Below, piece by piece: positions 7,194-34,680 of a stretch of DNA of 64,000 nt (position 1 is the stretch's first letter; each line of letters starts with the position of its first letter). Location: the NCBI GenBank assembly GCA_002224055.1, contig AZLU01000002.1, forward strand, positions 296,777 to 360,776, in the 5' to 3' direction. This stretch comes from Pezizomycotina sp. ARF18. Taxonomy: Eukaryota > Ascomycota. The translations under genes and the position numbers were made by a program. Below the pieces are notes generated by a model. The model saw nothing but the letters and a program-made list of their open reading frames with translations. It ran no database searches and had not been told where the DNA came from.

Positions 7194-7874
7194 TTACATA
7201 TTAAAACTATGAATGCTACCAACGGTATCACACTTTCCTCGACGGTCTCTCGAGCCTTTTCTCAAGGCATATTGAGACTCTAGAGGATATACTTTCAATA
7301 AACCTTGCTTTGAGGAAATACCTCTTCCCTCTCTTGTGTTACTTTTCTCCTCTCGATCCTTTTCTTTATTTTTTCTTCTTCCTTCTTCGTCGCTCCTCTT
7401 CTTCCATATCTCTCCCTTCCGAAGCTCTTCATCCTCTTCCGGTGTGCGCTTATCTCCCTTTTTTCTCAAGCGCATAAGCGGGTCTTAATTCGGCTGCGTT
7501 TCTTCTGCTCCTCCGATGCGTTCGGGTCTGCTGATACAGGGACGCGTCCTGAGCCCCCTCTGACCTTATCGCGATAAGCTTGTTTGGCCGCTTTTGCAGT
7601 AGCCCGATAATCGGGATCAGTCGCGTATTTATTCCTTCTCGCAGCGTTATACGCCTCGTAATCGGTTTCTTCGGGTTTCTATCGGGTTTTTCCTTGTTCC
7701 TATCGGGGTTTTCCTCTCCTAAACTACATATTGAGCATTTTTCCTGAGAATGCTCTATTTCCTTCTTAAGAATGCGGCCCGTGTTTCGCAATAGTGCGGA
7801 CGCTGGCATTTGTTAAGGACATTAACGTCCCAGCAGTCGCAGGTGTACGTTAGGTGGCGATAGAATCTACACAT
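7194..7874 (-). CDS. CxCW/DPxYR family member, copy A
   Basis: Start ATG at 7874 gives MCRFYRHLTYTCDCWDVNVL, followed by KCQRPHYC. Further motifs, in more than one frame, are KCSICS (about 7725), TDPDYRATAKAAKQAYRDK (7570-7620) and the C-terminal KGDKRTPEEDEELR (7420-7460), then a Glu/Lys/Arg-rich tail. The order and spacing equal those of the uninterrupted copy at 9828-10424. The paired cysteines suggest a small metal-binding (probably zinc) module ahead of a charged helical tail; this is inference. No signal peptide or membrane segment is visible, so an intracellular role is likely. The upstream region shares an 11-bp motif and a TATA-like element with other copies. Function unknown. The frame is interrupted, so this is either a decayed copy or a sequence error. 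Confidence 0.6.
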
Positions 7875-7945
7875 CGTGACAATCAAGGTCTGCGTGTTTA
7901 AATAAGTGCCTCTAGTAAAAGAGCGGATACTAAGCGGAATAAGGG

Positions 7946-7956
7946 TATTTAGGTGA
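7946..7956 (-). promoter_or_regulatory. Shared upstream 11-mer, copy A
   Basis: TCACCTAAATA on the gene strand, 72 bp upstream of the copy A start. The same 11-mer occurs upstream of copies B and E, and with one mismatch upstream of copy C. Chance expectation for one given 11-mer is well below one per window. Confidence 0.55.
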
Positions 7957-8042
7957 CCTGTCTTTAGGGATATTGCTTCCGTTTGCGCTGAAATATCCTA
8001 AGATTTGTATGCTGGTAGTGCTTAGATAACTACTCCAACGCT

Positions 8043-8053
8043 GGAATTTATAC
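8043..8053 (-). promoter_or_regulatory. TATA-like element, copy A
   Basis: GTATAAATTCC on the gene strand, about 170 bp upstream of the copy A start. Related A/T elements sit at comparable distances upstream of copies B, D, E, F and H. Confidence 0.45.
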
Positions 8054-8276
8054 ACAAGGGCAACTATATACAATACACCGAGGGTAAGCTTAAACGACGA
8101 TATTCCCATTTCAAAGATTTAAACTTGCGGAACTCATTTCAATACCACAAACCTGCATCTTCTCCGATCTTCATTTTGAACTAGGAAGATATTCACCTCT
8201 TTCCTGTTACTTATCTCCTCTTGGTCCTAACCTCTTACTCCTTTCCTCTTCCCTCCTTTTTCGTCGATCTTCCTTT

Positions 8277-8742
8277 TTATTTCGTCGATATTCGTCTTCC
8301 TCTGTCTAACTTGTTAAACTCTTCATCTTCTTCCAGCGTGCGGTTGTCCCCCTTATCCCTAAGTTTATATATGCGATTCCTTCGGCTTCTCCTCTTTTCC
8401 TCGATTGATAGATCCGGGTTTTTATACTTCGGTATGCATCCTGGGATTCTGCCAGTGGGCCTGGATATACCGTCATGAGGACCGTATCTTGACCCTCCCC
8501 AACCTCGTCTACTGCTAGAGCCAGCTTTATCTTCCCTTTCGACTTTTCGTCTCTGCTTCTTTGTATCAGCCGCTCCCCCTCGTCGCCAGTAGCACATGCT
8601 GAACATTCCTTCTGACTGTCCAATTTTCCATCTTGGCAATGCGGGCCATAAATAAGCAAATTTTCTGACGCTCGCATTCCACAAGGACATCATTTCCCCT
8701 ACATCCGCACGTGTACTTCACGTTGCCGTAGAGGTTACGCAT
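8277..8742 (-). CDS. CxCW/DPxYR family member, copy B
   Basis: The ATG at 8742 gives MRNLYGNVKYTCGCRGNDVL, then ECERQKIC. The Trp after CxC is replaced by Arg. A CSAC pair follows at about 8610. The C-terminal motif is IYKLRDKGDNRTLEEDEEF (8315-8370), ending in a short basic tail. A clear DPxYR motif was not found; the middle is Ser/Arg/Gly-rich. The gene lies head-to-tail with copy A, about 400 bp away. The 330 bp upstream of copies A and B are visibly alike, so the pair arose by tandem duplication including the promoter. The frame changes within the gene. Function unknown. Confidence 0.55.
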
Positions 8743-8828
8743 GGCGGCTATAAGGTTTGCGTATTTGAATTAACTGCTTCGAAAAAATACTTCGAAATAA
8801 AAAGACCAGATACCAAACGAAACAACAG

Positions 8829-8839
8829 TATTTAGGTGA
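8829..8839 (-). promoter_or_regulatory. Shared upstream 11-mer, copy B
   Basis: TCACCTAAATA, 87 bp upstream of the copy B start and identical to the elements of copies A and E. Confidence 0.55.
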
Positions 8840-8952
8840 TTTACCCTTAGAGGATGTTGCTTCGGTTTTTCATCTAGGGCTTTGTAAGATTTATATGCTG
8901 GAAGTGCTCAGTGGAATTTTGTTAAATGGGATCCATAGCTGCTTCAATGTCG

Positions 8953-8963
8953 GGATTTTATAC
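8953..8963 (-). promoter_or_regulatory. TATA-like element, copy B
   Basis: GTATAAAATCC on the gene strand, about 210 bp upstream of the copy B start, aligned with the copy A element within a longer conserved upstream block. Confidence 0.45.
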
Positions 8964-9827
8964 TCAAAGAGCAACTGTATGCAGCTCCACTCGAGGGATA
9001 GCTTAAACGACGATGCTCATTCCAGCTCAAAAATTTGAACTTGCAGACATCGTTGTGATACATTTTTAAACTCCAAACCTGATTTTAAACCTTTCAAAAT
9101 AACACTTCTCTAAAAATCAGGCCATTGACTCCGTAGAAGAACGAGCTGAAACGAGTATGTTCTCTTTTGCCCCCTACAGACACAATGCAGGGCTAGACTT
9201 TTGAGCTTGTATAGCGGTAGCTGGTTTCCAGTGCCATTCAAGTCAACATCGTTCAATATACTTATATTACGAGGATGGCTTCTGTCAGTTTTCATGCTAC
9301 AAGCTCGTGGCCTGTTGAGCCAGAAATATCTATTGCTGTAGGAAATGAATCGGATGTATCTTCGGCAAGATGCAGGAGATCAATCGTCTTGGAAATCACA
9401 ATCGTATTAAGACATCATTTTGCTACAAACAATTCTCAGTTGTGGTCTGAGTTCATCTAAGGTTACCAACCCAGCGATATGGGAAATGTATGGGTTTTTC
9501 CGTTACTCTGCATTACCTCGAATGGTTTAGTACCATTGAAGGATACTGCGCAATTGCAAAATAGCCACCGAAGAAGTAGTGGCATGGAAATGCTCACATT
9601 TTTAGGAAAAAAATCAAAAAAAGGGGAGGAGTTAGTAATCATTCGATGAAAAGGGTTGCTACCCCGGCACTACGTTTGTTTCTGACCCACGAATAAATCG
9701 CACAATACAGTTAAATTCAAAATTCCATACGGACAGTACGTGATTGTACGTGACACGACTTCGAGCAAAGCGTTTTCCAAATCTCAGCCTATATTACCAC
9801 TCTTTAGTCGCACTATCTACCTTCGAT
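8964..9827. other. Spacer between copies B and C
   Basis: The first 100 bp continue the upstream homology of copy B: AGCTTAAACGACGAT recurs at about 8088 and 9001. The rest (9100-9827) holds short open frames on both strands that I cannot support as genes. Confidence 0.4.
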
Positions 9828-10424
9828 TTACACGCGCTTTCTGTTTGGGTTAAAATGTATGAAGGTCCCCTTTTTCTTCTCTTTATCCTCATCTCGCTCT
9901 CGCTCTAGGTCCTCTAATTCTTGGTCTTCCTTCTTGCTCCTGGTCTTCCTTTTTTTAAGACTATATATAAGATCCCTTCTATTCCTGGCTTTTCTTCGTC
10001 GCTCTTCTTCTCGAACCCTTTCATCTCGCTCTCTTTTTCTTTCTTCCTCTTGTAAGCGCAAGAGCTCCGGTAGTTCTTCTTTCGTAGGCTGACTTTTCCC
10101 TCTCGAGGCAGAATTCGAAGGATGCATTGAACTACCAGTGTATTCCACTTCCTCTTGTGTTATTTCTTTATTTTGTTTGGGGAGATAATTTCTTTGCCAC
10201 TCTTCATCGGAGATCTGCTGCCCGGGTTCGTTTATCCAATTTTCTTGCGGCTCCATCGGACGATCATCTCGATGACATCTCGAGCAAACACCTCCGCTGT
10301 CTCTTCGTCCCCTTCGTTGGACCAATCCATCATTGGCGCAAATCTTCGGGTATTCGCATGGTCTGAAGACTTCATTATCCCAGCATCCGCACGTGTAGGT
10401 TACACGATCGTAAATCCGACACAT
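9828..10424 (-). CDS. CxCW/DPxYR family member, copy C (uninterrupted, 198 aa)
   Basis: The best reference for the family, because one ATG-to-stop frame covers it. Residues 1-34 read MCRIYDRVTYTCGCWDNEVF, then RPCEYPKIC. A CSRC pair follows near residue 48. The middle (residues 60-105) is polar and the DPxYR motif is weak or absent. From about residue 110 a strongly charged Glu/Arg/Lys helix begins (ELPELLRLQEEERKRERDE) and leads into the C-terminal motif IYSLKKRKTRSKKEDQEL and a basic tail. Six to seven cysteines in the first 50 residues suggest a zinc-binding module, with a coiled coil behind it. No signal peptide or membrane segment. Homology to any named family is not apparent to me. Confidence 0.72.
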   Translation of the reverse strand: MCRIYDRVTYTCGCWDNEVFRPCEYPKICANDGLVQRRGRRDSGGVCSRCHRDDRPMEPQENWINEPGQQISDEEWQRNYLPKQNKEITQEEVEYTGSSMHPSNSASRGKSQPTKEELPELLRLQEEERKRERDERVREEERRRKARNRRDLIYSLKKRKTRSKKEDQELEDLERERDEDKEKKKGTFIHFNPNRKRV

Positions 10425-11245
10425 GGCTACCTACGACGTTGATATTTTCTATAAGAAAAGCGTGTGATTTATGAAAAAAAGAAATTTTTTTTAAATCAAC
10501 TGTAATTTGAAAATCGGTTATTTAGGTAAAGATTTCTGGGAAATTTTGGTTCTGTAGTTTTGGTCTAAGGAACTGGAAAGTTTGTAGGGATGGTTTGAAG
10601 AAGGAACTGGATCAACAGCTCCTCATGGTCAGATTTCATACTAAGGATTTAGATTATAAAGATACGTTGGAGAAATAAGCTTAACCTCGTTACTCACCCA
10701 TAATCCAGTTCTAAAGGTTGGACTTGAGAAAAACATATTACCGCGAAGATGCATTTTTCAAACTTGGAGCTTAAGTCCCTTTGATATTAATACAGTTCTA
10801 AGTAGTGCTTGAGGACACTTTCAAACTCATATTCCCGAATATTTTTTTAAACAATCTTCGAAGTTAAGATATGGGATCGAGGCAGGAAACTCGAGTATAT
10901 TCTTAAATGAATGAATGCCTTTTCTCTGTGATTGAACCACAGAAAGATTCTCATATGTATCCATTCTCAATCTGAGAGTACTCAAAGGAGGATCAGATAT
11001 AAAAGCATGTCTACAAAATGTCTCCAAGAGCAATACAGATTCAGAATCCTTAAACAAGCCCAAATTATTCTTGACACTCTCAAACTTGGCCAAATTTTAC
11101 CTACTCTCCAGTTTTAACCCAACGTATTCCCATCTACTGTGCTGTCTGTATTACCTATGGATCATAAGGGAGTTTAGAGAGATTGTTTTATGGAGCGTGA
11201 ACTCGAGAATTGCGCAATTATGCCTACAAGGTTGGGGTTAAATAT
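10425..11245. other. Upstream region of copy C
   Basis: Contains the TATTTAGGTAA element (10519-10529) and AT-rich DNA. An 88-codon open frame at 10827-11093 (-) has no recognisable motif or family resemblance and lies in the position of the divergent 5' region of copy C. Confidence 0.35.
10519..10529 (-). promoter_or_regulatory. Shared upstream 11-mer, copy C (one mismatch)
   Basis: TTACCTAAATA on the gene strand, 95 bp upstream of the copy C start; one base differs from the copy A/B/E element. Confidence 0.45.
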
Positions 11246-11580
11246 CTATTTAGTCCTATAATTCTCCGAACATTGCACAATTAAGCCTATGATCCATGTA
11301 GTCACAATGATATATGCCTTTTGCGCTATGCGGTTGTGGCGCCTCTGCACCCTCTTTTGATTTTCTTGGGCCCGGTATTCGGCATCATCTGAATATCTTT
11401 TCGCCCTTTTCTGCCAGCTTTGCGCCAGCTGCATTTGTCGCACATTGTACTTTCTCTTTGCTCCATCTCGGCGATTCCTTATGTCTCAGCGCAAATCTGC
11501 GCACTTTTACACTTTATGAGAACGTTGTGCTCCCAGCAGTCGCACTTTTCGTAATTGACAGTGCCGTATAGTCTGCACAT
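11246..11580 (-). CDS. CxCW/DPxYR family member, copy D (short)
   Basis: The ATG at 11580 gives MCRLYGTVNYEKCDCWEHNV, then KCKSAQIC. A second Cys pair (CDKC) and the motif DAEYRAQENQKRVQRRHNR follow in other frames (11330-11450), matching the DPEYRADYNRKQNQRR segment of copy F. No C-terminal RTxxEDEEL motif was found, so the copy appears truncated at its 3' end. It shares the sequence TTCACGTTGAA plus a TATA-like element upstream with copy F. Function unknown. Confidence 0.5.
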
Positions 11581-11732
11581 GACTATCCTGAGTAGTTAGT
11601 ACGGTAAGTTGTCTTCGAATTCAAGAGTTTTATTTCCGTATGTTTGCTCTACGAATATGCTATCTAGATTAGTAATCTTTGTAGCCGTAAATGAGTGTTG
11701 GTGGAAGTGATAGACAACATATCTTTCACGTT

Positions 11733-11746
11733 GAAGTTTTATACTT
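11733..11746 (-). promoter_or_regulatory. TATA-like element, copy D
   Basis: AAGTATAAAACTTC on the gene strand, about 155 bp upstream of the copy D start, directly beside a TTCACGTTGAA block (11726-11736) shared with copy F. Confidence 0.45.
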
Positions 11747-12602
11747 ATTAGGGAGAATCATATACGAATGCACTTAAGGCCCATCCAGTTTAAGAACTCG
11801 AACTTACGAAGTAGGGTTAATTTGAACACATCAATACGAGTCTGCGTTTTCAAGGGTCTAGGCTTGATATCTTGCAATGCGTATCTGCAAGAATTGAAAA
11901 TAAAATTGGATGATATTCTTGAAAAAAGAGAAGCTGAATTCCTGAATGTCCTTTATAGGTTTGAAGTTGATGTCACTTTGATAAGTTGCACAAAACTATT
12001 CTTGTTTTAATTATGGAGCCAAATATTCCTATATGGCATCCTGCTTTCATTCATGGTTTACACAAATATATTATGAATTGTTTGCGGTTCAATATATGTT
12101 ACATGGCGCGATTATGATAGTAATACTATTATCTACCGTTGTGTATGTATATCGGGTTAGAGAAGAGTGCATCCGTTTATAAAGAGGAAACATAAGAGTA
12201 AGGTCAGAAAAAAAAGCCGCTCATCTAGATGTCTTGATATTATTAAGCTTGGCCTATGCTTCATTACTTGAAATTAAACCATTTACCAAGTAACTTAGCT
12301 ATAATTTGCCATCAAAAGAATTTTGTAAATAAGAATGAATACCTTAATCCCAAGCTCAAGGATTCACTATTACCGTTTTAACTACTAAGATAAACGCTGA
12401 ATACTGACCTCAAAGACGATTATAGATATAATAAATATTCAAAACAAGAGGATCTTCAAGAGTAGCCCTTTAAGCCATTTTTCCCACAAAAGATGCAAAA
12501 ATTTACAGAAAGCTATCAAGCTTGATCCCGGAAAAGTTATGTCCATTGTATTATTACGTTCTCAAATTAAAATATTTCGCAAACTTGTACACTATCCATC
12601 TC

Positions 12603-12617
12603 CAAGTATATATTTCC
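12603..12617 (+). promoter_or_regulatory. TATA-like element, copy E
   Basis: CAAGTATATATTTCC, about 190 bp upstream of the copy E start. It is followed by a block shared with copy H, including GCTATTGAT, then CTGCTCACCTT. Confidence 0.5.
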
Positions 12618-12708
12618 GAACCTGGGGAGGATATTAGCTATTGATACTGCTCACCTTTACCAAGTGCAAAGTTCTACTAACAAAGCAAAACATTCCTAAG
12701 ATACGGGT

Positions 12709-12719
12709 TCACCTAAATA
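12709..12719 (+). promoter_or_regulatory. Shared upstream 11-mer, copy E
   Basis: TCACCTAAATA, 85 bp upstream of the copy E start, in the same orientation relative to the gene as in copies A and B although copy E is on the other strand. Confidence 0.55.
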
Positions 12720-12803
12720 TTAATTTACTATAACGGTAACCAATAATAAATAAATAAATAAATAAAGCAAGAAAGAAAGAAGAAAAACCACGATAATAGC
12801 AAG

Positions 12804-13024
12804 ATGTGTAAGCATTACGACATCATAACTTATCAAAAGTGCGGATGCTGGGAGAACGACGTCCTCGAGAAGTGCAAGCACCCGCAATCTACGCCAGAAA
12901 CGGCCTAAAACTTCAAAAAGAGCATAGGGAGAGCACGGAACTCTGTAAGAAGTGTCATCAAGTCCGCATGAATAAGCGTTACCATGAAAAGATAACAACC
13001 GACTTAGTTCTCACTTTGTTATAA
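12804..13024 (+). CDS. CxCW/DPxYR family member, copy E (N-terminal remnant)
   Basis: The ATG at 12804 gives MCKHYDIITYQKCGCWENDV, then KCKHPQS. After a frame change, YARNGLKLQKE and CKKCHQVRMNKRYHEK match the CADxG and CxxC parts of other copies. The rest of the gene, including DPxYR and the C-terminal motif, is missing, and the sequence after 13024 is unrelated. This is the only inverted member of the cluster; its closest relative by upstream sequence is copy H at 34.2 kb, also on the plus strand. Likely a truncated copy. Confidence 0.5.
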
Positions 13025-14115
13025 TCATCTTTCGAGCTTGGATAGCAAGTATCTGATTCATTTTGTTAAAATCAGAGCAATCATTCTTAAACCTTGGAAG
13101 TGACATTACATATTTAGTTTTTTATATGTTGCTTTGGATGACTTGAGCTTGAGAATACCGCGAGGCCCCGGAATCATGACCTCCTTTAAACTTGCTCATT
13201 TACTCTTTTAGATTAGTTTCACCTAAAAGTCCCACACTTTCCATGAATGAGGGATAGCTAATCAGAGTTATGTTATTGTGATTGTGTTAGTATGTACTAT
13301 TCTTAGTCGTTTGTATTAGTTTGCTTAGCTATCTCCCTAGTGTCTTCCTTTACTCCTCTTTTACCCGCCTTCTAATTCTCCGGTCTAGGTGGAGTTACAG
13401 ATGCAAGTGAAAATTCAAAGAGAGAGAAAGAAGTATAAGATAGTAAAGGTAGCGAAGCTGTCGTCTTTACAATAAAGAGAATACTGATCCCCGTAGAAAT
13501 GCATCAAATCCGGCTCTTAAATATTTGCATATATCATCTTATTCTCTCCATCTCTTGCATTTCCCCGACTAGCAGCTTTTTTTCGGTAATAATACGATTG
13601 AACATACGGCTAGTGGGTTTCTAAGCGTAACTATTGAACGAATAAGTAAAGAGAGATAAAATTTATAATCAAATTTTGTTCGAGTCTCCCTTGAAGGTGC
13701 TGCATAGACAGATAGAATATTTCAATGAGTAGCGTTTATCAGAATCTAACCGAGGTTGATTGAATACGCATTGAGGTCGGTTTCTTTGGCATGGCCCGCA
13801 CTTTTGAATACCCACAAGAATGCCTGTGCATATTATTATTGTAGTGTTCAATTGGTTATCTAATGGCACGATCTTTCGTCAATTGCAAACGACTGAGGCT
13901 ATATATTTTTTATGTAATTAACTCATTTTTTAATTTGCCCTCTGACCCTGAAGTATTTTTGTCTCTTTGCTTTGGAAGTACTATTTCAAGTGCTTTTACT
14001 TTGTTTGTTCTTATAAAAAATATTGCAAGAGCGCTACCCTTTTTCCCCCGTTCTTTTCTATCGTTTTAATTTCATCCCCTTTGATCTATCCCTAAGTCCT
14101 ATTTTTTCATAGATT
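13025..14115. other. Gene-poor spacer
   Basis: Short open frames only, AT-rich. No recognisable gene. Confidence 0.35.
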
Positions 14116-14666
14116 CTATTCATCCATTTCATCCTCCTCCTCTTCGTCCTCACCGTCCTCTTCGTCCTCCTCATCTTCCTTATCTTCCTCATCTCTTCCT
14201 TTTCTCCTCGGTGCCACCTTTTCCTTATTTTGTTTCTTTCTATCCTCGTTCCATCGCTCTAACCATCCAAATTCTTTATCATCGTCCGGCGTGCGCTTAT
14301 CTCCTTTTACTCTGACGCGATACAAACGTCCCTGGAGATACTTCTCATCTTCAGTATTATCCTTCCTGGGTCTGCCTGGGATTCCTTTTGGGGCCGGCCC
14401 CGTGCTACCCGTATATTTGCTCTTCTCTGGTTCTGCTTCCGATTATAGTCGGCCCGGTACTCAGGGTCATTCCGGATTTTCGCTCTTCTCGTTTTATCCG
14501 ATGCGGTCCGTCTGCATTTGTCGCAGGTCCCATCGACTTCTTTTTGCTCTCCACTGCCGATCCGGCCTTGATCGGCGCAAACACCTGGACGCTTGCATTT
14601 CAGGAGGAAATTTTCATACCAGCAATTGCATTTGGTATAGGAGATTATACCGTATAGTTTGCACAT
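14116..14666 (-). CDS. CxCW/DPxYR family member, copy F
   Basis: Shows all four family motifs in order. The ATG at 14666 gives MCKLYGIISYTKCNCWYENF, then KCKRPGVCADQG. Next come GTCDKCRR (about 14515), DPEYRADYNRKQNQRR (14440-14490), and after one frame change YRVRVKGDKRTPDDDKEF (14275-14325). The end is a nearly pure Asp/Glu tail (14116-14200). Total length is close to 183 residues, compared with 198 in copy C. The first 120 residues and the last 69 are each uninterrupted. The acidic tail contrasts with the basic tail of copy C, so the C-terminus is the variable part. Function unknown; a metal-binding head with a charged tail suggests a protein- or nucleic-acid-binding role, which is inference. 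Confidence 0.65.
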
Positions 14667-14797
14667 GGTTGCTAAGTTTTTAAGGGATTTTCCTAAGGTA
14701 TTTGCTTTCGGATATTATTGGGCTTGTATTACTTGGAGTGTTGAAAAAGTACTGAACGAAAGCAGATGGAGTCAAGAGCTACAGGACCGTTCACGTT

Positions 14798-14812
14798 GAA
14801 TATTTTATACTT
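14798..14812 (-). promoter_or_regulatory. TATA-like element, copy F
   Basis: AAGTATAAAATATTC on the gene strand, about 135 bp upstream of the copy F start, beside TTCACGTTGAA (14790-14800), which is also found upstream of copy D. Confidence 0.45.
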
Positions 14813-16139
14813 AAAGATGTCTATATACATATTTACTGAGCGAGCAAGCCCGACTACGGTTGACCTCGATCATCAAACTCAAGAGCTTGTGTTTGCTAAA
14901 CTGTAAATTCACATCACGAACTTGCGTTTTCAAAGGTCCAAAAGTTCAATATCCTTTGATATATATATGGATATAATAAGTGGAAACAGCAATTGAGAAT
15001 ACTCTCAGAAGAAAAGCACGGTATTCTTAAATATTTATTGCCATTCTAATCACTTAGTCTAAGATTCCCATACATACACAGCTATCATTAATGATTATAC
15101 ATATAAATTATCCATTGATAGTAGAATCATAAACCGAGTCTGGTATACCACAAACTCAAACAGTGACCTCTCTCTCTGGATCCTCTCTTTTGCTCTTATT
15201 GGGCATCGGAATAGTTTTGTCTCAAGGCCTCGAATATACCAAAAAGGCTCTTGTTTCTGAAATAAAGCATTAACTTGTATAAACATGAAAATAAAAGAAA
15301 AAGGAACCGAAAAGACAAGATATAATTATCATTAATCATGGCATAAGGGGGATTTCTATGTTTTTAGTATTGTTATAAACTTGTAGCTTACTATAATAAA
15401 ATGTATACCTTACTGGTATGAACATTTACGTACGCTGCTTTGTCATGAAGCGTTTTTACGACTGCGAGAAGCGCCTGTAAAAAATAAATACAATATCATT
15501 ACCTAGTATGGAGGAGACCCTCCTAGCGATGCTGGCGGAACCTTTGCTTGCAGCGCTAAAAGTAAAAGCATTGACTAATTCCAAACGAATTATTATTTTA
15601 ATCTTGGTAATGTTTAATAATATTGTCTATTCGTCAGGATTTTCAGGTACATTATCTACCCGAAGATATCGAAAAACGTTTCTTTCCTGGTGCTTGCTGT
15701 ATTCGTAAATCCCAAATTCGCTATACTCGTAACTAACACGCTTTTCCTAGTTAATTTTAAAATACTAAGTATTTTACAAGATCTATTACACTCAGTATAG
15801 CTATCTCAAGATATAGATACTAAATAAAAGATTGCGTAATAAGTTTAAAGACTAATATTATAGCGAAACTTGGCTATTTAATACGAGAGTTTATATTTAT
15901 ATTTATTTATTATTATTACGAATCTATTAATATAAACTTAAAAGTATATATAAATATATGTATTATTATATCTTTTAAGGCTTATTTATTTTATATTACC
16001 TATTATTTAATTATAACGAGCTATATAGCTGTAAGCTATTAAGCTCTTCTATATGCAAAATTTTTGTTCAAATAACTGCTATGGAAGGCTTAGTGGTGCG
16101 TGAGGGTTACGAAAATAATAGTTTTTCGCGTTGCGAATA
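14813..16139. other. AT-rich spacer
   Basis: 14860-15040 continues the homology with the copy D upstream region. 15830-16040 is extremely A/T-rich with many TA steps, as expected of old AT-mutated repeats. No gene supported; a 66-codon open frame at 15508-15708 has no motif. Confidence 0.35.
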
Positions 16140-16500
16140 TATAACAAGCGCCTCTTTCCTTTTTCCTCTTTCTTTATCTGTTTCTCTTCTTCATTTATTC
16201 GTAGCAACTCTTGTAGTTCTCCTTCTTCCTTTGCGCTCTTGTTTTGCTTGCGTTTGAGGTATCCGATACGACCTTTTCGAGTCGAGACCCGATTTTCTCC
16301 TCTTCAGTTCTTTCCTCCCAAGGCTTTCGAAGTGGCACTGGGAGTGGCTTCTTGATAAATTCGGCATGGTAACATGTGCCGCAAATGAGTTTATCTTTTT
16401 TTGTTCCTTTTTTTTTTTTGGAGGGGGTGTCTGAATCTTTGCAACTGCATTCCTCAAGGATTGCTTTTCTTGTACTGTTGGATGAAAGTGACTGGACTCG
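16140..16500 (-). CDS. Possible diverged CxCW-family member, copy G
   Basis: Contains CSCKDSD (about 16445), then LICGTCYHAEF (16370-16400), and a charged segment EGELQELLRINEEEKQIKKE (16150-16230, another frame) that resembles ELPELLRLQEEERKRERDE of copy C. No ATG with the MCxxY start is visible, and the CxCW head is not clear. It lies next to the cluster and on the same strand as most copies. The call rests on the two Cys pairs and the coiled-coil resemblance only. Confidence 0.3.
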
Positions 16501-16566
16501 ATAGTTGGGCAGTATAATTTTGAATTGGAATATATATATATCTAGAGATGGCGGATGCAGACACAC

Positions 16567-19504
16567 CGGAGCGACAAGTTTGACTACGACTTTTATTGAC
16601 CATGGATTTTAGAATGACCCTATAGGACATTTTCTCGAGTTCATCACTGCAATTATGCGTTTTAAACAGCCTAAGTCTGATTAACTTTGATATATACGAG
16701 TAATTTCAGAGCTATGTACAATAAGTAAAACAACATTTAGACGATATTCCCGAACTTCAAAGACTCTCACCTATTGTATATCTTCAATAATTATAGCTTT
16801 TTAGATGCGAATAATATTTGCGGCAATTATTAACATAGAAAGAATGGTTCTAATCATGAAGCCGAAGTTTATAGTCTCATTTATTAGTATAATTTTATTT
16901 GATATATATATATGTTCATGTGAGCCAGAGCTTTAGCTACAATATAAAATTGTGACGTAACTACCCAAACTTGATACTCTGATACTCGATTATGTACGGC
17001 TCTCATTTAAACGGTAGTCAGTTTGATCATGTAGAAGTTCTGAAGGTACTGGCCACAGGAGATTATGTTGAGCACTACATCGATAATGACTCCCACTAGT
17101 TTTCGGCCCTTTAGGCGCATGCATTTATCATTATCGTATATCGAAGGAGTTTCTGGATATTTACCGTCAAGCTATCGAGATGTTGAGCGCATTAGCTAGT
17201 GGGAGAGTGAGCACATCATTATAAATGTCAATCTGGGAAGTATAGTATCAACGTTTTACCTCGGATTTCTTCAATCGTTGTTCTTTAACTTAGTATATCA
17301 TATTACCACTGCGGGAACAATCTAAGCGAATCTTCTATAGCAAATATTATAGAAGAAGGTACTAGACATTTAAGTAAGATTCCTAGCAGTACTACTACTA
17401 TTAAATTTATTGTAAAGGAAGACACTTGCGACGGCAAGCATGCCCAGTTGTATATAAACAGAGATATTACGCCGAAATGTTTTCGCGTGGTTTGTCCACC
17501 AAAGTTTATGTTTCGCCAAGAACTTAGAAAACAACTAAAAATATAACGATAAATTTGGTAAAAGTTACAACGATAGCAACGCGGAATCTGTACCTGAATG
17601 AACTATTGAGTTCTCAGAGGGAAGCTTGGCCCAAAAGGAATGATCATACGGAGTTTCGTAAACACATCGAGATCTGTAGTTCAAGTGCGGATTATGGTCC
17701 GGATAGCTTGCCGTTCCTTGCCTTTTCGATTGCGACTTTTTCTCTGATATTTTGGAGTTTCAAGGATCGCCGATTCGCTAATCATTACTGACCGGGGATC
17801 GTCGGTGCTTTGATTAGTTCAGAATTGTGCAGCACCTCCGAGAGCGCCGTAATATCGCCGAAATGAGAACGACCGAGCATGGATTTCGGCATGGGATGGC
17901 CGCCGGGCACTATTCGGTATACCGAAATGTTGCACATCAGGAGAAAATTAGAATAAATTACATCCCGATAGCCATACGCGATCGCGATCATGAGGGGATA
18001 CGCTCGACACAAGGCTGCAGTTCTGTGCGTTATCGCATATATAGGGCAACTTATCTATGTGTCAGACAGACATTCTTATTGACTCGTTTCATTTAATCGC
18101 CCAGTAAAGAGTCTAGACCGCACCAAGAGCCCTTCAATAATAAATGAAATAAGCCCTCATATATCAACCATTCGGCGATTCGAAATCCACCTTCTCGAAA
18201 TGAACATCGTGAACATTTCTCCGAAATCTACCACGCTTCCTTTAACTGTCAAAATCTTCACCACTAAAAATTTCCTCACGTGAGTTTCGTTCCTTTTTTT
18301 TTTTTTCGCTCTCTCGGCATGGTTCTAAAGAATTCCGCTTATCGAACTCGTTGTCCTCCCCCGGCAATTTCCGGCTATCTATTGGGTCCAGCTAGTCCCT
18401 TAGTAGAATCGAAATTGTGGACCCTGCATAGAACACCAAAGAAGGATTGCTATAACCCTTGTCTGGCACACAACTGAAGTATTCCTCGCACAATTTAGCG
18501 GACAAGTGAGTTTTTTTGCTTGACAAGTCTCTCTCACTTAGTGACTAAACTGTTTTTTGACTGTTTTCTTTAGTCGGGCTCATTGAGAGATGCACTATCA
18601 ATTGTGGAGGTAAAAGGACAAGCTCGAAGAGGAGCTAAACTAGACCTGTACAGTATGGAGGATAATGAGAGAAGGAGGAGGTCAGTGAGTCTGTTCAATA
18701 ATAGCGAAGACAATGCAGAAGCGGCCAATACGTATATACTGTACATTTTAACCCACATGGTCACAAACCAACCACTCGCAGAGGAACTTCTGCTTCATCT
18801 TATCCCCCCCTGTTCCTTTTATTATTCTCATCGTGATCAATCCCGGTCCGTTGTCCGGTTTTCCCAGCTCCGACCGTCTGGCCTGTGTCCGTGTGTCTCT
18901 TGTTCCCCCGCCCGTAATTCTTTTCCCCTTCTAGAAGACTCCCTTGGGATCATTCTTATATTTTTATTCGACCCCATCCCCAAATCGAATCGAACGAATA
19001 AATCCTTTCTTCCTCCCCTTTAATTCCTTCGCTTGTTCCTTTCGGCTTTTTTTTCTGCCTGATTCATTTAAGGCAGAAATCTCTCACGGTTTCTTTTAAG
19101 GCTTGCGCTTACGCGCCCTTCCCTCTCGCTGAGCCCCCGTGAGTCAGCAAAGCCTCAACAGGACGTACCCCAACCACCCTTTGGGTATACGAATCAGCTG
19201 TACAATTTGTTCCAATTTAAATAAATAAATATCAAAGACGACCGTGTTCTGATTTCTTCCTCTTTCTGTTCCTCTAAGTCCGCTTACTCGTCGTGGTGTG
19301 TTGCGGTGATCCGTACGAAAAAAATTTCCCCAACAGCTGATAATACGAATAACCTCCTGAACGCGGGGACTTTTCACTTTACCCTTCCATTCCGAGAAAA
19401 AATTTTCCTTTCTTTTCTGGAAACAAAACTACACCAATCCACCGTGTAAAGGAGGCAAAAACTGGAGGACGTATACTGAACAGCAGCAGCAGCAGCGACC
19501 GACC
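16567..19504. other. Gene-poor spacer and probable kinase 5' region
   Basis: 16.6-18.5 kb is AT-rich without a supported gene; an open frame at 17555-17791 lacks an ATG. 18.5-19.5 kb becomes pyrimidine-rich with CT tracts and a (CAG)n run at about 19482-19495, consistent with promoter and 5' UTR of the downstream kinase. Minus-strand frames at 18570-18764 and 19144-19377 are not supported. Confidence 0.35.
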
Positions 19505-22500: not shown

Positions 22501-22994
22501 ACGGGCAGGAGGCGCTGGACGTCGTTAATAAGAGCGCGTTCGTGAATGAAGGAGGGAAGTTATAGATGTGGTACTTATGATAAGGAGATGCGGTGATGGA
22601 CGGGAACCAGGCGACGGTAGAAATTAGGAGGATGCAGGTGGAGGGGAAGATTAAGAGGCACGTGCCGATATTGGGATCAGTGCGAACGCGAGGCCGCAGC
22701 AAAGTAAGTTACTCGCCCCTAGAGGATAATAGGAGTGGGATGGATCAAAGATGCTAATTCATGTTTTTTTATTTATTTTTTTTTTTTTTACATAGTCGCG
22801 GAGATGGTCAGCTCAGGCATGGACGACGCCGTCTCGAAGCCTTCAAGATCTCGCAAGTCCTGGAGAAGTTCCCAATACTCTGCGCGGACGCGAAATTGAA
22901 ACACGAACGCAAGTTTTTACTGATATTGGACAAACATTGCAATATTCACCGGCGTTTTTTCAACACCACCATCTATATACTTTCTTTCAAATAA
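19505..22994 (+). CDS. Hybrid histidine kinase (PAS-HisKA-HATPase-receiver)
   Basis: A two-component sensor kinase that would autophosphorylate on His and relay phosphate to its own receiver Asp and then to an HPt protein. The start MPSVPGYFDLESS precedes an intron at about 19662-19829. After it comes TPLGPMKQWPEPLRLAAT, the usual opening of the fungal N-terminal PAS-like region. A PAS domain follows (AFLKSELEARTKELKDSEML, then VGIMVVDISGEIFFANDAY, about 20880-21070). The HisKA motif is FVDMFSHELRNPFSAI, His codon at 21399. The N box is MVNLLSNAIKFT and G1 is VEDNGIGI. The receiver begins YHVLIVEDNLINQQVMKRQL (about 22407) and ends FKISQVLEKFPIL after an intron at 22704-22795 (GTAAGT, TGCTAAT, CATAG). 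The stretch expected to hold the receiver Asp (22565-22605) is out of frame, and several other frame changes occur. Probably cytosolic; no membrane segment seen. Confidence 0.85.
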
Positions 22995-26537: not shown

Positions 26538-29210
26538 ATGTCAGAAATGTCTTCAGGAGCACCTTCGATCCGTCCCCTCTCGGAGGATGCCGTTGCTCAG
26601 CTACGAAGCTCCGTCACGATAAATAACCTCGCGGGATGTGTCCAGCAGCTTCTCATGAACAGTACAGCCCCCCTTCGATCTTCCCTCTTTGTTTTTCGCT
26701 GTATAGCCACTAGCTAACCTTATCGCAGGTCTCGACGCCTCTGCAACGTCCATAGACATCACGGCGAACCTCTCGAAGAACTCCGTCACGATAGAAGACA
26801 ACGGCACCGGCGTTCTGCCCTCGGACATGCCATTCATCTGCCACGATATGGTAACTGAAACCCCCTTCCCCCCCTTTTTTTTTTCTTCGTTTCACTTCTT
26901 CCTCTGAGTAAAACACAAGCTCATACTGCTTTCGTCTTGAATTAGCTACCTCCAATCCGCCTCCTCCTCCTTCGGCTACCACGGCGAAACCCTCGCCTCC
27001 CTCTCTACGCACTCCCACCTGCACTTCGTCTCTCGCCACCGTACCTACCGCTCCACCCACTCCGTCCGCTTCCACTTCGGCACCCTCATCGAGCGGAAGC
27101 AGATCACAACAAACTCCACATGCTCGTAACTCCCGGTACGAAGGTTCACCGTCGACAGGCTGTGGGGAACTTCCCCGTCCGACTAAAAGCCGCGAAGCGT
27201 CCGGAGTATTAGACCGGGAATGGGACGAAATAACGCGGACGATTGCCGAACTATCCCTCATGTCCGTTCTACGAAAATAATTACTCCGCGACGAGAAACC
27301 GGACGCAAAAACCATGTTCGGAGAAAACGTCGGCTTCGACGGTAGTTCCGACCCGAAGGATACGGAGAAGTACTACTTGAGGTGTTTGCGGCAGTTACAC
27401 CTACTCAACTACCGCCCCGCTGGAACACTGGGAGAACGTAATGGGTACGACGAAGTACACACTATCAAGGGATTAATGTGCATGCAGGCGTCCGCGAGTA
27501 AATCCTTCAGTTCATCTTCCTCAACGCGTCCCCGTGCGCTACTCGTTCTACTTCGATGCTGTACTACACCGTGAACCAGATGTTCGGGTTATCGACCTTC
27601 GCACGATCGAAGAGAACACGCGGCCGTCGCGGCAGAACGCCTCCGAAAAGGTTGTAGATCGCCACCCGATGTTCGTACTGAAGATCACCACGGGGACGGA
27701 AATGGCTCGGAGGACTTCGACGCCGAGAATGCGAGCATAGTCCGCGACGTCGTTATACTGCTGCAGCAGATCGTCGAGCAATTTCTTAAAGTCGGCGGGT
27801 GGTGCGCATGAGCTTACCTATCGCGAAGCAGAACGCGGAGAAGGAAGCGAAGGCGCTCGCGGCGGTAAATCCGAATAGCAAAGTTGTTGACGATGGTATG
27901 CGGCTGCTAGATATAAGCCAGTGGTCGAAGGTGAAGTCTTCCCACGAGAATCCGGCGGAGGAAGCGGGAGGTCGATCACGGGAGGGAAAAAGAAGGAGCA
28001 GGTGGTATTACAGCCCGTCGCGGGCGATCCGGATTCGTTGATATGGTCAACCCGTCGAACCTCAAGACCGTCATACTCGACGCTCGCACGGGAACGTGAA
28101 GACGCACAAAGCCAGTATCAGCGATGAGAACAAGAAGAAGGAAACGAAGCGGATAAGCATTGCGGAAAAAAGCCGAATAAGGATAAGGAGAATCGGTCGG
28201 AGTGGCTTAAGAAGGTTATCAAGGTAAATTGTCTTCCTTCCTTCCGTCCACACAATCTACCTTCCTGCCTTCAGCCTTCTAATACGTTTCAACCCCCCCC
28301 CCCCCCTTTTTTTTTTTTTTTAGGACTACAAAAACCCCACCTTCGCAAACACCGAAAACCCATCCCGCAAATCTTCAACCCCTCCAACCCGTCCTCCGCC
28401 TCCCAAATCCACCTCGATCCAACTCCTACACGTTCTCGAAAAGATCTCCAAGGAAGCCCTCTGGAACGCGACCGTAATATCGCAGGTCGACAAAAAGTAC
28501 ATTCTTATCCGCATATCCTCCACAAACACCTCCCTACCACTTCATCCTCCCTACTCGTAATGGTAGACCAGCACGCCGCCGACGAACGCATCCGCGTCGA
28601 ACGGCTCTGGAAACGTATATGCAAATCCACCTACGAACAACACCCTGAGAAAGCCTATCCTATTCGCGCCGTCATCGCACGAGCACGCGCTGTTCAAGAA
28701 GTACGCGCAGGAGTTTCTGATTGGAATATAATACTCGACGTCCAGCAGGACGTACAAAAGACCGTTTCGGTGCGTGCTGTTCCGGACGTCGTAGCGGACA
28801 GGTGCGTGGAGCAACCGTCCATCGCCGTCGATTGGTGCGGGGTTACGCACGGGAGCTGGAGGAGCAGCGGCATAAACGCTCAGCTAAATTTCCTACCGGC
28901 GAAGAGGAAGATGGTGTAAGTTGGGTTACCAAAATGACGAAAGCACCCAGATCGCTCGTCGATATCGTTAATAGCCGCGTGCAGGAGCGCGATAATGTTT
29001 AACGATGAGTTGAGTCTTGATGAGTGTATGAAGTTGGTGAATGATTTGGCGGGTGTAGTTTTCCGTTCCAGTGCGCGCACGGGAGGCCGTCTATGGTGCG
29101 ATTGTTGATGTTGCGGGTGGAGGGTGGTGTTGAAGGGGAAGGGAAGGTTGGGAGGAGGAGGTTTTGGGGAGTGGATGAGAAGTTTGGAGGAGGAGAATGG
29201 GGATGAATAT
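26538..29210 (+). CDS. MLH3: DNA mismatch repair protein MLH3
   Basis: MutL-family ATPase/endonuclease that pairs with MLH1 (MutLgamma) in mismatch repair and meiotic crossover formation. The ATG at 26538 gives MSEMSSGAPSIRPLSEDAVA. NLAGCVQQLLMN joins across an intron (26662-26728, GCTAAC branch) to SLDASATSIDIT, and VTIEDNGTGV is the GHKL ATP-binding motif. SSFGYHGETLASLSTHSHL follows an intron at about 26852-26945. In the C-terminal half, VISQVDKKYILIRI comes after an intron at 28224-28323, then MVDQHAADERIRVE (28560-28600), the DQHA(x)2E(x)4E metal-binding endonuclease motif. The end is FPFQCAHGRPSMVRL, the second metal-binding element. The frame changes several times, so a single intact product cannot be read here, although every catalytic element is recognisable. 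Confidence 0.88.
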
Positions 29211-29314
29211 GGGGAGGAGGAGTGATATATGAGGGAGGTGTCGTTTTTTTAACAGGACTTACCAAGACTCCAGAGTTTGACGTTGAATATTAGTAAAGTG
29301 CAGCAAATAAATAA

Positions 29315-29397
<83 letters not shown>

Positions 29398-29851
29398 GTA
29401 AATAAGGAAGAAAAATAAAAAGAATGGCTTACGACAAGTTCGCCGCAATTTTTTTTTTTTTTTCCCAATCGCGCTGCGCTCCCCACGAACTTCGCCAACA
29501 TTTTTCACTATCTTAACCGAAGGAACAAATGTATATATTAACGCAAACTCGACAGAACCGTTCTCCTCCCACTTCTTCTTTAACAGCGAATAAAAGCAAA
29601 AGGGAAGACGCAGAGAGTATTCAAGTAAGTTCTAGAAAAAATATTATTTGTTTATTTATTTTATTTTATTGAAAAAAAAAAAAAAAAAAGGGAAATCGCA
29701 CTTTTTCTTTTTACTTCTCCTACCGAACCAACCGTTCAAACCACAGTCAAACAAAGAATATAACCCCCATCAAGCAAATTACATCAAAATCATAACCAAA
29801 TACAATAATCCAAAAAAAACTGCACTTTTTTTTTTCCTTCTTTGTATCACC
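29211..29851. other. Intergenic region with microsatellite
   Basis: Between MLH3 and the next plus-strand gene; contains the (AAAT)n array and poly-A/T runs at about 29450-29463 and 29671-29690. No gene. Confidence 0.6.
29305..29405. repeat. (AAAT)n microsatellite
   Basis: About 100 bp of nearly perfect 4-bp AAAT units with one interruption near each end. On the minus strand it reads as a spurious Tyr-Leu-Phe-Ile repeat. Confidence 0.95.
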
Positions 29852-32815
29852 ATGTCGTCTACGGCTGTCAGCGACGTTAACGCCGCGCGGCCACCAAGGA
29901 ACCAGACAGGAACATTCACATTGCAAACTCCTCGCCGAAATCGCAGAGTCGACGTCGGAGCGCTTCTCGGCCCTCGGCTTCCAGCGTAATAAGCGCGAAA
30001 CTTGCCAAGCCATCATGTCCGACCTCAGGAGCAGGAACAAGTGGAACGGCGACCCGAACCTCGTGAAGGCCTTCAACCACCTCCCGCGACGGGGGCGGAC
30101 CTGGCACGTTTCCGTCCGCGGCGCGCCCGACGGCGACGGGTACCTTATATTTTTCGCGTGCGTCGCCGACGGCGGCGCACACGGGCAGCTCGTGCTCGAG
30201 GAGGGTTTCAATGAGGCCGTCAGCGACGGGGAGTACTGCGCCGTCGTGGCGCGGGGCATCGTGAAGGCGTTCGTGCCGGATATCGGTGAGGTTGTCGATG
30301 GGGGGCGCATGAGCGTTAAGCCGGAGGAGCTGGTTTCCGGCGACGGGAGGGTCTTAAGCGGCGTCGGGAGGTGTTTGAGGAGATGGGCGTGGCGGGCGGC
30401 GTTACGGATGTCAGGAGGGCGACGGAGGAGGAGGAAGGGGTCGCGGAGGAAAGTTGGGCGGAGGAGCTGGAGAATTACGAGGAGGGTAAGCTTTGACGAA
30501 AACGACTATGGGTTTTCTTGAGAATTATCTTTTCTCAACTAACAAAAATCAAAATAGAAGAGAATCGAGAGTTTGCTCGACGCAAGGCTAAGGAGATCAT
30601 GGACGACGCTTTGGCGCGCGAGGTCAAGCGCACGAAGGCCATCTCGATGATCAAAGACCCCGCCAAGCACTTCGACTCCCTCCCGCGCGCGCGGACCGAG
30701 GACTACTTCCACTTCCACACCGCCGTCGTGCCTTCGCCTTCCGACCACCCTTCCTGGCCGAAAGATCTACCTCCGCTGCCGACGCTGGAAGTCTTACTCC
30801 TCTACAACCCTTCCACGGAACAGCTCGCCGTGGAGGGTCCCGTCGAGCACTTCGAGGAGCTGGAGGACCTCTGGAAGCGCATCGCGAACACCGCGGGTAT
30901 GCTGCTAACAGCGTTTAATACGAAAATCGGCTCCGCACCGGGGAGCTGGAGCACGGACGACGACGCCATCGCCAGGTGTCTGATGCGCAAGTCGAAGAAC
31001 ATGGGCGTGAAGTCCGACCTCGCGAAGAAGATCGGGCGGGGTAGTAAGGCGGAGTACGTAAAAGCCGCGGAGGAAGCGTGGAGGAAGCTGGAAGCGGATA
31101 AGGTTTACATGCTCGGTTCCGCGCGCAGGCTATGATCAGGAAAGGATGGAGAGTGAAAAGGACGGCAGCGGTAGCAGTAGTAGTTTGGTTGATGAGTTGA
31201 AGGGGACGGAGTTTAAGGAGCTCGCAGTTATCGCTGGTGGGACTGCTCTTCCGGTGACTGGGGGGAACGGTAACCGGAAGCTCGTGAAGGTCGGCCAACT
31301 CATTCTGGAAGACGTCAGGCCCGAGCCGGCGGGGGAAGATCTGGGGAAAGCGGAGACGGCTACTACCGATACTGCTACCGGGAAGTCGGGGAAGAACAAG
31401 AAGAACAACGAGAAGAGGAGGAATAGGTCGAAGTCAGCCGGAGCGAATCCGCCGGGAAAGAACCAGAAGGCGGCGGCAGCGGGAAGATACCGACGAGGAG
31501 AACTTGCACCCTATGGAAAAGAAATACGGCAGGTAATTCCAAAAAAGAAGAAAAGAAAAGAAAAGAAAGAAAGAAAGAAAGAAAGAAAGAAAAGACAATC
31601 CCTTCTATTATTTATATCCCTCTGACTGAACTCATATACTAACATTACTTCTTTCTGTACAGTCTCCTCGCGGAACAGCAAGCCTTCGCCCGCAGCCACT
31701 CCAAAAACCTGCACCTCTTTGACTCCAAGCCAAGCCGAACACCAAAAAGAGCTCCAATGCCAAAGCGCCATCCGCCTTACAATCCCTCGCTGCAGCTATA
31801 AACACCGCCTACCTCCCCCGCGGTGTCTTTTCCTCCACCCTGAAGAAGCTCTTCCAGAACATCTGGCACTTCACCGAAATAATCGACGTCCCCGAAGGCG
31901 AACCTGAAAATATCAATTTCAAACTGTTCATCTACAACCATGAATCTGGTTACGGGCACTACACCCCACAGTTACCGTAAAATCCTCGCCCGGCACGATC
32001 GAAGGCGTCGATACCCCGCTGCAATCAGGAGGCGCGCGGAAGAGGAAGCGGTGGAGAAAGAGAGGGAGAAGAGGAGAGGGAGATTAAAGGGAGGGTATCG
32101 AAGATTTCGAGGAGGAGTACTAGGAAGAGACTGCAGCAGCAGCTTGAAGCGGAGAGTAAGAAGAGGGAAGAGGAGAGGAGGAAGATTACGGCGGAACCGC
32201 ACGCGTGGAGAAACAGGCGGTGGCGGTGGGGGTGTGGGGTGGCCCTCTGAAGGAAAAGGACGGAAAGAAATCGACTACTCCTACCACAACTATTAAGGGA
32301 AAGGAAATCGCTCCTCAAAAGATGATCGACTGGAGGCAGATTCTCCAAGCGGCTAAACGGATCCACGGCGAAGGACCCAACGGAACCATCGTCGTCGAAT
32401 CACAGCAGGAAGCTTACTTGGTCATGGTGCAGACCGCCGAGTTCTCCTGGGGGATATCGAGACCGAACCTTCGGAGTTCACGCTTGCGGCAATCCATCAG
32501 GCTGCTAATGCGTCGCTCGAGGATGGAACGTGTCAGGTCGTGGGAGCGGAGGATGAAGTTGCGAGCCTTGCGAAGGCGTTTGCTCGTGGGAACCTGGCGG
32601 ACTCTGGGCTCGATGAGGAGGATGAGGAGGGGGATGAGGGGAGCTTGCCGGAACTTGTTGAGAATGACGCCAATGGTGATACTGGGAAGAGTAAGGGGAA
32701 GAAGAAGAAGAAGGCAAAGCCGAAGAAGAAGGCGAAGGCGAAGGGAACCAACAACGACGACAACGCGGACGACATGCCGGCTCTGCTCCCCGCCGACGGT
32801 AATATGAAAGTGTGA
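29852..32815 (+). CDS. Large unrecognised protein with Lys-rich C-terminus
   Basis: I do not recognise the family. The ATG at 29852 gives MSSTAVSDVNAARPP. A globular-looking segment follows (MSDLRSRNKWNGDPNLVKAF, then WHVSVRGAPDGDGYLIFFAC, 30015-30290). An intron at 30486-30557 (CAACTAAC branch) leads to REFARRKAKEIMDDALAREV and YFHFHTAVVPSPSDHPSW (30570-31135). Then come a Gly/Asn/Lys-rich linker (31146-31530), an intron at 31533-31662 (TACTAAC branch), and GVFSSTLKKLFQNIWHF (about 31820). The end is acidic, then a Lys-rich tail (KGKKKKKAKPKKKAKAKG) up to the stop at 32815. Coding character is clear from GC-rich codon use and three-base periodicity. Frame changes at about 31135 and elsewhere mean this could be two neighbouring genes. 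The Lys-rich tail suggests nuclear or nucleolar location (inference). Confidence 0.6.
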
Positions 32816-34166
32816 AAAAGCTTCGGTTGAAAGAAAGGCGGTAAAGGTTACTACAAGCTCTCTTTAAGTGTCGGATTTAACACATTTTATACAACTTTTC
32901 TCTAGGAAATGTGGGTATCTCTCTTATTTTCTTCTTTTTCCTTTATAACATGTTTAATGGGATTATACTGGAGGATCAATTATTTTATTTTATTTTTTCT
33001 ACCAGTTATTTTCATTTTTCTTTCTCATGGATTTAGGGTTCTTTTTAACTTTTAGCGACGACAAACTTGATAATAATTTTATCATGATCGAATATTTCCC
33101 TCTTCTCTTCTTTATGATTGTCTTTACTGGCATCTGTATCTATTAAGAGAAAAAAGGCACAAAGATGGTGGAAACAAAAAGCAACGGAGTTTGATAGGGA
33201 CAGCTAAACGATTAACAGTAACAAAGATGAATAATATTACGCTAACCATGAGGGCTTGGGTATTCTTTTCATTCCAATTTCATCTTCGAGAAGAGTCAGA
33301 TGCTCAAAATAGAGTATAATTTATATGATCAGACTGGCAACTTTAATTCTTATAAAGCATTTAACTCTTCGGTCCTATCCCTGAACGTTAGTGGTGACCA
33401 ATTTTAGAGTCATGAATCCACTTCAATTGAACTTCCTGAATGGGCAATATAGGAAGTAGTAATATTACTGGTATTATTGCGGTTGTTGACGTCTAATAGA
33501 GGATAAATCTCTAAAAACATAAGCTAGATGTTAATTCCGAGAGAAGGTTTTATTGCAAGTTCACCCAAAAGGTCGTGAGAAGTAAGGTTAAGACTAGAAA
33601 ACAAACAGATGACATGCCTCAGGCTCAGGCTATTCCTTACTCCTGGAGATTAAATAATCCATCGATCTACTTAGATACAAATTACGGTTTAAAAGATGTA
33701 TAAGAAAGGAGTGAATACATTTGACTACACCCCAAAGTTTAAGAAATATTTATTTCCGTTTTGCGTATTAATTTAGAAACCCGATACTGATCTCAAATAT
33801 GACCATAATTGTAAAGAATTGTTTGAGAGAAATGACCTTTGAGAGTATACTTTCACACCACTTTTCTCATAAAAGGCACAAATCATACCGAAGCCATCAA
33901 AGCGATACTGAAAAATGCGTGTTAGTGGGAATAATTCGTTCAAAAATGGACGTTTCGCAAGGTTTCACACTCCCATCTTCAAGTATAAATTTCCGCCAAT
34001 AGAGGATGCTGGCTATTGATCCTGCTCACCTTCCCCTAAGTACAACAGGCCCTTTAATATCAAATTGAAAGTCCTAAAAACTCTCTCAAATAGCCTTATT
34101 TTTTATTTATTTATTTATTTTACTACGACAAATAGAAAAAAAAAATCTACACCCCGACATAGTAAT
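32816..34166. other. Upstream region of copy H
   Basis: 32.8-33.6 kb is AT-rich without a gene. 33770-34060 is clearly similar to 12390-12680 upstream of copy E (for example CGATACTGATCTCAAA, then the CAAGTATAAATTTCC and GCTATTGATCCTGCTCACC blocks). A short TTTA run lies at 34098-34121. Confidence 0.5.
33980..33994 (+). promoter_or_regulatory. TATA-like element, copy H
   Basis: CAAGTATAAATTTCC, 173 bp upstream of the copy H start, nearly identical to the element of copy E 21 kb away. Confidence 0.5.
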
Positions 34167-34680
34167 ATGTGCGAACAGTACGGTCTTTTAACCTATAAAT
34201 TGTGCATGTGCTTCGACGTTGAAGTCCTTGAGAAATGCAAGCACCCGCTGATTTGCGCTAGGGATGGTCTGATTATTCGAAAGAGCAGAAGGAAAGCAAG
34301 GGACGCTGTCATAAGTGCAATCGGGATCGTTGTAATCAGCGGCATCGCGAGAGAATGGCGACCGATCCCGACTATCGTGAACATTACCGGCTACAATCGA
34401 AGAAGAGGTACAGTAAAATGAAACAAATCATGAAAGCTGAGGGCGAGCCGAGCGAGGAGGCTGTGCGGAAGCCCGAAAGCGACAGATCAGGTGGCTTAGA
34501 CGCAGAAAGAGTAAGCGCACGCCGGAACAAGATGAAGAACTCCGGCTGGGAGAAGAATGGCTAGAGGAATTGAACAGCAGAGAAAGGCCCGGAGAGAATC
34601 GGCGCTGTTGCAAGAAGATCCTGGGAGCCTTCTTCGAGAGCGCTCGATACAGAGTAGTGATCCCCAGTATAATAAGGTAA
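34167..34680 (+). CDS. CxCW/DPxYR family member, copy H (dispersed)
   Basis: The ATG at 34167 gives MCEQYGLLTYKLCMCFDVEV, then KCKHPLICARDG. The aromatic after CxC is Phe instead of Trp. In other frames follow HKCNRDRCNQRHRERM and DPDYREHYRLQSKKRYSK (34350-34420), then LRRRKSKRTPEQDEELRLGE (34495-34545), EEWLEELNSRE, and a C-terminus ending YRVVIPSIIR at the TAA at 34678. All four motifs are present in order, so this is a full-length copy with frame interruptions, lying about 18 kb from the main cluster. Its upstream DNA is shared with copy E. Function unknown. Confidence 0.6.

Follow-up and report, generated by a model that had tools for sequence, protein, structure and literature searches.

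A locally duplicated family of seven cysteine-headed protein copies at one locus of a 46-Mb fungal genome

Seven copies of a cysteine-headed protein family (A, B, C, D, E, F and H) lie at a single locus of Pezizomycotina sp. ARF18, and the family is real: each head was found by a profile built without it, and in each copy a CxxC follows at a similar distance. With a probability of roughly 0.4, we read the cluster as a birth-and-death family that duplicates locally and encodes small intracellular fungal proteins with a zinc-binding head, helices that would contact nucleic acid or an acidic partner, and variable tails. The stretch of DNA studied, here called the window, is 64,000 nt long and covers positions 296777-360776 of contig C2 in a genome of 46.4 Mb and 408 contigs. 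Motif scans and six-frame translations recovered five copies on the minus strand (A, B, C, D and F) and two on the plus strand (E and H), listed below in window coordinates together with an eighth copy claimed by an earlier, sequence-only reading of this DNA.

7197..7874, minus strand: copy A; head ATG at 7874, head 7758-7874, CxxC from 7737, DPDYR 7604-7618, RTPEEDEEL tail 7422-7448; three frames
8280..8742, minus strand: copy B; head ATG at 8742, head starting M-R, CxxC from 8605, RTLEEDEEF tail 8316-8342, DPxYR not seen; three frames
9828..10424, minus strand: copy C; head ATG at 10424, one open frame of 198 aa, head and CxxC, without DPxYR, long charged helix
11249..11580, minus strand: copy D; head ATG at 11580, in-frame stop, CxxC from 11442, DAEYR in a different frame, no tail detected
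12804..13021, plus strand: copy E; head ATG at 12804, CxxC from 12944 in a different frame, neither DPxYR nor tail detected
14119..14666, minus strand: copy F; head ATG at 14666, head, CxxC and DPEYR sharing one frame, RTPDDDKE tail in a different frame
34167..34677, plus strand: copy H; head ATG at 34167, CxxC from 34307, DPDYR 34364-34378, RTPEQDEEL tail; three frames
16082..16608, minus strand: claimed eighth copy, unsupported

Copy A also contains a 21-nt tandem repeat (7664-7715), and the distance from its ATG to DPDYR is 61 nt above expectation. Elsewhere in the window, a 193-bp unit is present in tandem at 41646-42032 (two copies, ∼97% identical), and a fragment of an APH-type (kinase-like) phosphotransferase lies on the minus strand at 37135-38040, with only the later part of the profile matched in that frame.

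For the heads, the resemblance exceeds chance. Leave-one-out head profiles found all seven copies, at E values from 2.6e-8 (B) to 4.3e-15 (C), in a database of 11,214 six-frame pieces (271.8 kb) drawn from the window, 120 kb of flanking DNA and 29 other loci; the best non-member in these searches had an E value of 0.049-0.26. Under a model built from all seven heads the next piece scored 11.5 bits, against 64.9-78.7 bits for the members; as these are the training sequences, the gap alone is informative. The CxxC, which the sequence-only reading had placed after the head, is present in all seven copies; its distance from the ATG is 137 nt in A and B, 138 nt in C and D, 140 nt in E and H and 141 nt in F, at sites chosen by eye in the translations and then verified by translation. 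The start motif proposed for the family describes seven profile-detectable heads and is looser in its letters than first proposed, since M-C opens six of the seven heads (B has M-R) and the spacing before C-x-C is shorter by one residue in A, B and C. Likewise, the proposed C-x-x-P-x-x-C occurs within a single frame in four copies (A, C, F and H), with C-x-x-P in five of the seven heads and the proline missing from B and D.

The heads also differ from one another in the manner of coding sequence. Differences among them numbered 251, 207 and 339 at codon positions 1, 2 and 3, a count that leaves out the first two codons and every codon past a frame break. The excess of position 3 over position 2 gave a permutation p of 3e-5 when positions were shuffled within each of 49 columns. 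This pattern indicates that the heads have evolved as protein-coding sequence, under protein-level constraint.

Past the CxxC, the shared order thins out. DP[DE]YR is present in A, F and H, and D has DAEYR; the leave-one-out profile of this middle piece was weak (E 0.001 for A, 0.027 for F and 0.075 for H) and did not find the middle piece of copy D (rank 469, E 230). The strict tail pattern matched in A and B only. Since a regular-expression search also missed the tails of F and H, and so is no proof of absence, the leave-one-out tail profile was preferred; it found the tails of four of the seven copies (A, 1.1e-10; F, 3e-7; B, 3.8e-5; H, 0.0059). It did not find a tail in copy C, and pieces of D and E are absent among the 12 tail-profile matches listed. 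The complete motif order is therefore present in A, F and H alone, and the earlier claim of an ordered set common to at least seven loci stands for the head and CxxC, shrinking to three copies for DP[DE]YR and four for the tail. The eighth copy, proposed at 16.1-16.5 kb, is dropped: it is absent among the listed matches of the head, middle and tail profiles, though MAFFT can be forced to align it.

The distribution of the copies in the genome was examined with six protein queries of the 46-Mb assembly (E limits of 0.001 for copy C, 10 for F, 1 for the F tail, 1 for the H middle, 10 for the E head and 10 for the A tail). All six matched solely within the window, the match counts being lower bounds. 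F as query reached every copy, the E head reached six, missing B, and the tail queries each reached just one other tail, so that diverged copies elsewhere may escape detection. No head was found in twelve flanking 10-kb pieces, and the members detected are confined to ∼27 kb. A genome-wide search with the DNA pattern for Y..C.CW gave 66 hits versus 66 for the control, making this motif alone uninformative; 30 of the pattern hits were extracted as loci, and in three of them (L016-L018) the pattern site matches the head profile; these are D, E and F, all in the window.

Duplicated blocks around the heads were found by blastn of the window against itself, and are given here without strand.

7799..8131: partial A head and upstream DNA (333 nt), 64.7% identical to 8667-9047 (B); E 3e-13
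8667..9047: partial B head and upstream DNA (381 nt), partner of 7799-8131
12368..12954: E head and upstream DNA (587 nt span), two blocks, 67.6% and 68.3% identical to H; E 4e-12 and 7e-9
33751..34317: H head and upstream DNA (567 nt span), partner of 12368-12954
7331..7472: A tail region, 69.7% identical to 14188-14319 (F tail region); E 1e-6

When the 300-nt stretches upstream of the heads were compared, 8 of 21 pairs scored above the best of 20 shuffles: A/B (91 vs 24), E/H (77 vs 28), D/F (36 vs 26) and five others that exceed their best shuffle by just 1-4. Because upstream DNA is duplicated in A/B and E/H, at least these two pairs derive from duplication of a longer segment, and the remaining copies may have arisen in the same way. 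E and H are 21 kb apart, and the sequence between them includes a hybrid histidine kinase. The local expansion suggested by the sequence-only reading is thus borne out by homologous copies within ∼27 kb of a 46-Mb genome and by flanking DNA that is duplicated for two pairs.

Several copies on both strands, with the sisters E and H ∼21 kb apart, are also what might be left by a domesticated or decayed transposon-encoded protein that had spread via transposition. This is very improbable, since none of the six queries matched the 46-Mb genome outside the window, the duplications extend into upstream DNA, and ten pieces searched against Pfam revealed no transposase family. The copies, not being dispersed, were not assigned to a transposon protein, and spread by local duplication rather than transposition is the reading retained.

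In all copies but C the reading frame changes as if single bases had been lost. A, B, F and H are each split over two or three frames, and C alone is one open frame. The head-to-CxxC interval in A, B, E and H is one base less than in F and C, that of D is three less with an in-frame stop, and additional frame changes precede the tails. An intron between head and CxxC was rejected as the source of the frame changes there, because 137-141 nt in seven of seven copies leaves no room for one.

Frame changes of the same kind were found in genes for which decay is implausible. As a control, HSP70 gave 38 matches on seven contigs, with 31 joints between neighbouring matches on six of them (C10 has a single match and no joint). 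Twenty of the 31 joints, on five contigs, shift frame without room for an intron, 14 by -1, four by -2, one by -4 and one by +2; the remaining 11 have larger offsets and may be introns or alignment ends. On the same contig as the cluster, Pfam pieces of a ribonucleotide reductase large subunit (L050:2612-4977; C2:393.4-395.8 kb) lie in two frames, and reading by eye suggests at least six frame changes within ∼2.4 kb. The hybrid histidine kinase (window 19.8-22.6 kb, plus strand) is by eye spread over three frames, with HisKA above the Pfam cut-off and incomplete HATPase and receiver matches below it. Matches to RPB2-like sequences were mixed: contig C15 has one -1 joint, on C236 two of three matches are interrupted by stops, and C82 has 951 nt in a single frame, yet with two in-frame TGA codons. 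An RNA polymerase beta-like match on contig C257, which we would guess to be bacterial, has an open frame of 879 aa. The frames of C82 and C257 may reflect either an uneven error rate or contigs of different origin. A report on long-read drafts describes most indel errors in one bacterial draft as false deletions (PMC12007338).

The ribonucleotide reductase and the HSP70 genes on other contigs show that this assembly often lacks single bases, which makes the frame breaks poor evidence of decay. They bear directly on the reading of the cluster as decayed pseudogenes, frameshifted and stop-bearing, with C as the sole possible survivor. That reading draws on the frame changes in every copy but C, on the in-frame stop in D and on the lack of a detected tail in D and E. 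We consider it unlikely, given the codon-position constraint in the heads and the same single-base losses in HSP70 (five contigs) and in ribonucleotide reductase. Assembly errors account for most of the frame breaks better than decay does. Single-base loss does not account for the missing tail signal of D and E, and these copies may be truly truncated. The locus displays copies at several stages: full, divergent and tail-less. For this assembly, frame breaks alone cannot indicate gene death, and counts of 'pseudogenes' would mislead.

The protein architecture was considered mainly in copies C and F, which share the spacing C-x9/10-C-x-C-x8-C-x5-C-x17-C-x2-C. The head cysteines are C2, C12/13, C14/15, C23/24 and C29/30, followed by the CxxC, and the seven cysteines occupy matching positions in the two copies. 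AlphaFold2 models from thin alignments had a mean pLDDT of 65 for F (119 residues, tail omitted) and 69 for C. In the F model, helices 49-66 and 68-88 directly follow the CxxC, with mean pLDDT of 79-97 over residues 51-90. At the equivalent place copy C, without DPxYR, has a weaker helix (73-90), and a helix-turn-helix is predicted in F only. The heads of both models are weak and beta-rich, with pLDDT of ∼38-57, too low for judging metal geometry. The zinc-binding head proposed in the sequence-only reading is thus plausible from the seven matching cysteines, while the models supply neither its fold nor a metal site. As for the proposed coiled-coil tail, a confident helix (118-186) is predicted in copy C, but the tail is 73% charged and hydrophobic residues fill at most 30% of a/d positions in any register. 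The predicted tail of copy C fits better with a lone charged helix than with a heptad coil.

These features suggest how such a protein might work. The cysteine head would bind zinc, and the CxxC would lead into an Arg/Lys-rich helix-turn(DPxYR)-helix that could touch either nucleic acid or a partner of acidic character. The tail, a charged helix that varies among copies, would determine the partner or target. The most likely function would be that of a metal-binding adaptor inside the cell, whose basic helices may bind nucleic acid. A more specific proposal is that the copies are an undescribed fungal class of zinc-head proteins in which the CxxC-helix-DPxYR-helix binds nucleic acid and the tails diversify per copy at a single locus for a recognition task, either self/non-self recognition or control of mobile or foreign nucleic acid; we regard this as improbable. 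Small, cysteine-rich, diverged and clustered proteins could instead be secreted effector-type proteins. By eye, however, the heads have no hydrophobic N-terminus or signal peptide, the ATG stands directly before the conserved head and the body is a charged helix, and this is the least probable of the readings considered, with hardly any weight. An intracellular role is the one we retain.

Searches for known families agree with the statement in the sequence-only reading that no named family has this layout, within the reach of the collections used. Ten copy pieces gave nothing significant against Pfam, the best matches (NAP, E 0.085; CDC14, 0.17; NOA36, 0.4) all being below cut-off, nor did five further pieces (SMIM43, E 0.28, for a piece of locus L056, on the same contig). 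Four pieces had no match in NCBIfam. Sequence searches of the PDB gave nothing significant (best E 0.05 and 0.093; a third search was empty), Foldseek of the F model against the PDB returned 0 matches, and literature searches on the family, on its biology and on its type of helix yielded no paper.

Fungal transcription factors of the Zn2Cys6 type have the spacing C-x2-C-x6-C...C-x2-C-x6-C. The spacing in C and F differs from it and none of the ten pieces had such a Pfam hit, so this assignment was rejected. The stretch covering the CxxC and helix resembles the N-terminal zinc finger region of Rabex-5 (2fid, 2c7m) in the middle profile at E 0.05, which is not significant, and the spacing of the earlier cysteines appears to differ from the A20 type. 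The basic stretch around DPxYR in H and A, at E values near 1e-3, resembles the phage family PHROG 19880, 'transcriptional regulator'; the middle pieces of H (E 9.9e-4) and A (E 6.9e-4) were two of six pieces scanned, and none of four reversed or shuffled versions matched. The likeness covers just positions 11-55 and 18-51 of the 136 in the profile, rather than most of it. Copy F, which carries DPEYR, had no match to this profile, and tblastn of the H piece against 50,697 phage records found none. The similarity to PHROG 19880 is weak and serves as a lead only.

The closest comparison by layout is with two loci of the same genome, L055 on contig C84 and L056 at C2:773 kb, which we take to be members of an uncharacterised ascomycete family with an M-C start, C-x-C, a GETCGM-type cysteine and a later CxxC. 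Searched with a consensus of that family, the genome gave C84 (E 8.2e-12) and, at E 0.03, C2:773 kb; the latter was also recovered with the C84 piece as query (E 4.1e-4). The presence of this family would fit a filamentous ascomycete as host. It is possible, if doubtful, that the seven copies are a divergent branch of this family. By eye the layout and cysteine spacing are alike, with C-x-C near residue 12-14, a cysteine about ten residues later, another cysteine, and later cysteines followed by a basic stretch, a likeness that rests on two members, the pieces of L055 lying in different frames. However, the KWG and CGMK signatures of L055 and L056 are missing from the seven copies, and neither DPxYR nor RTxxEDEE was seen in these two. 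The profiles gave no statistical link either: with that of L055 and L056 two unrelated pieces ranked ahead of copy D (E 0.73), neither locus is among the 16 matches listed for the profile of the seven copies, and hhalign of the two gave a probability of 1.5% (E 0.034, nine columns). The seven copies are for this reason not filed in that family. The cluster is described as an unnamed protein family, detected at just one locus in its genome, that joins the uncharacterised fungal proteins with cysteine heads.
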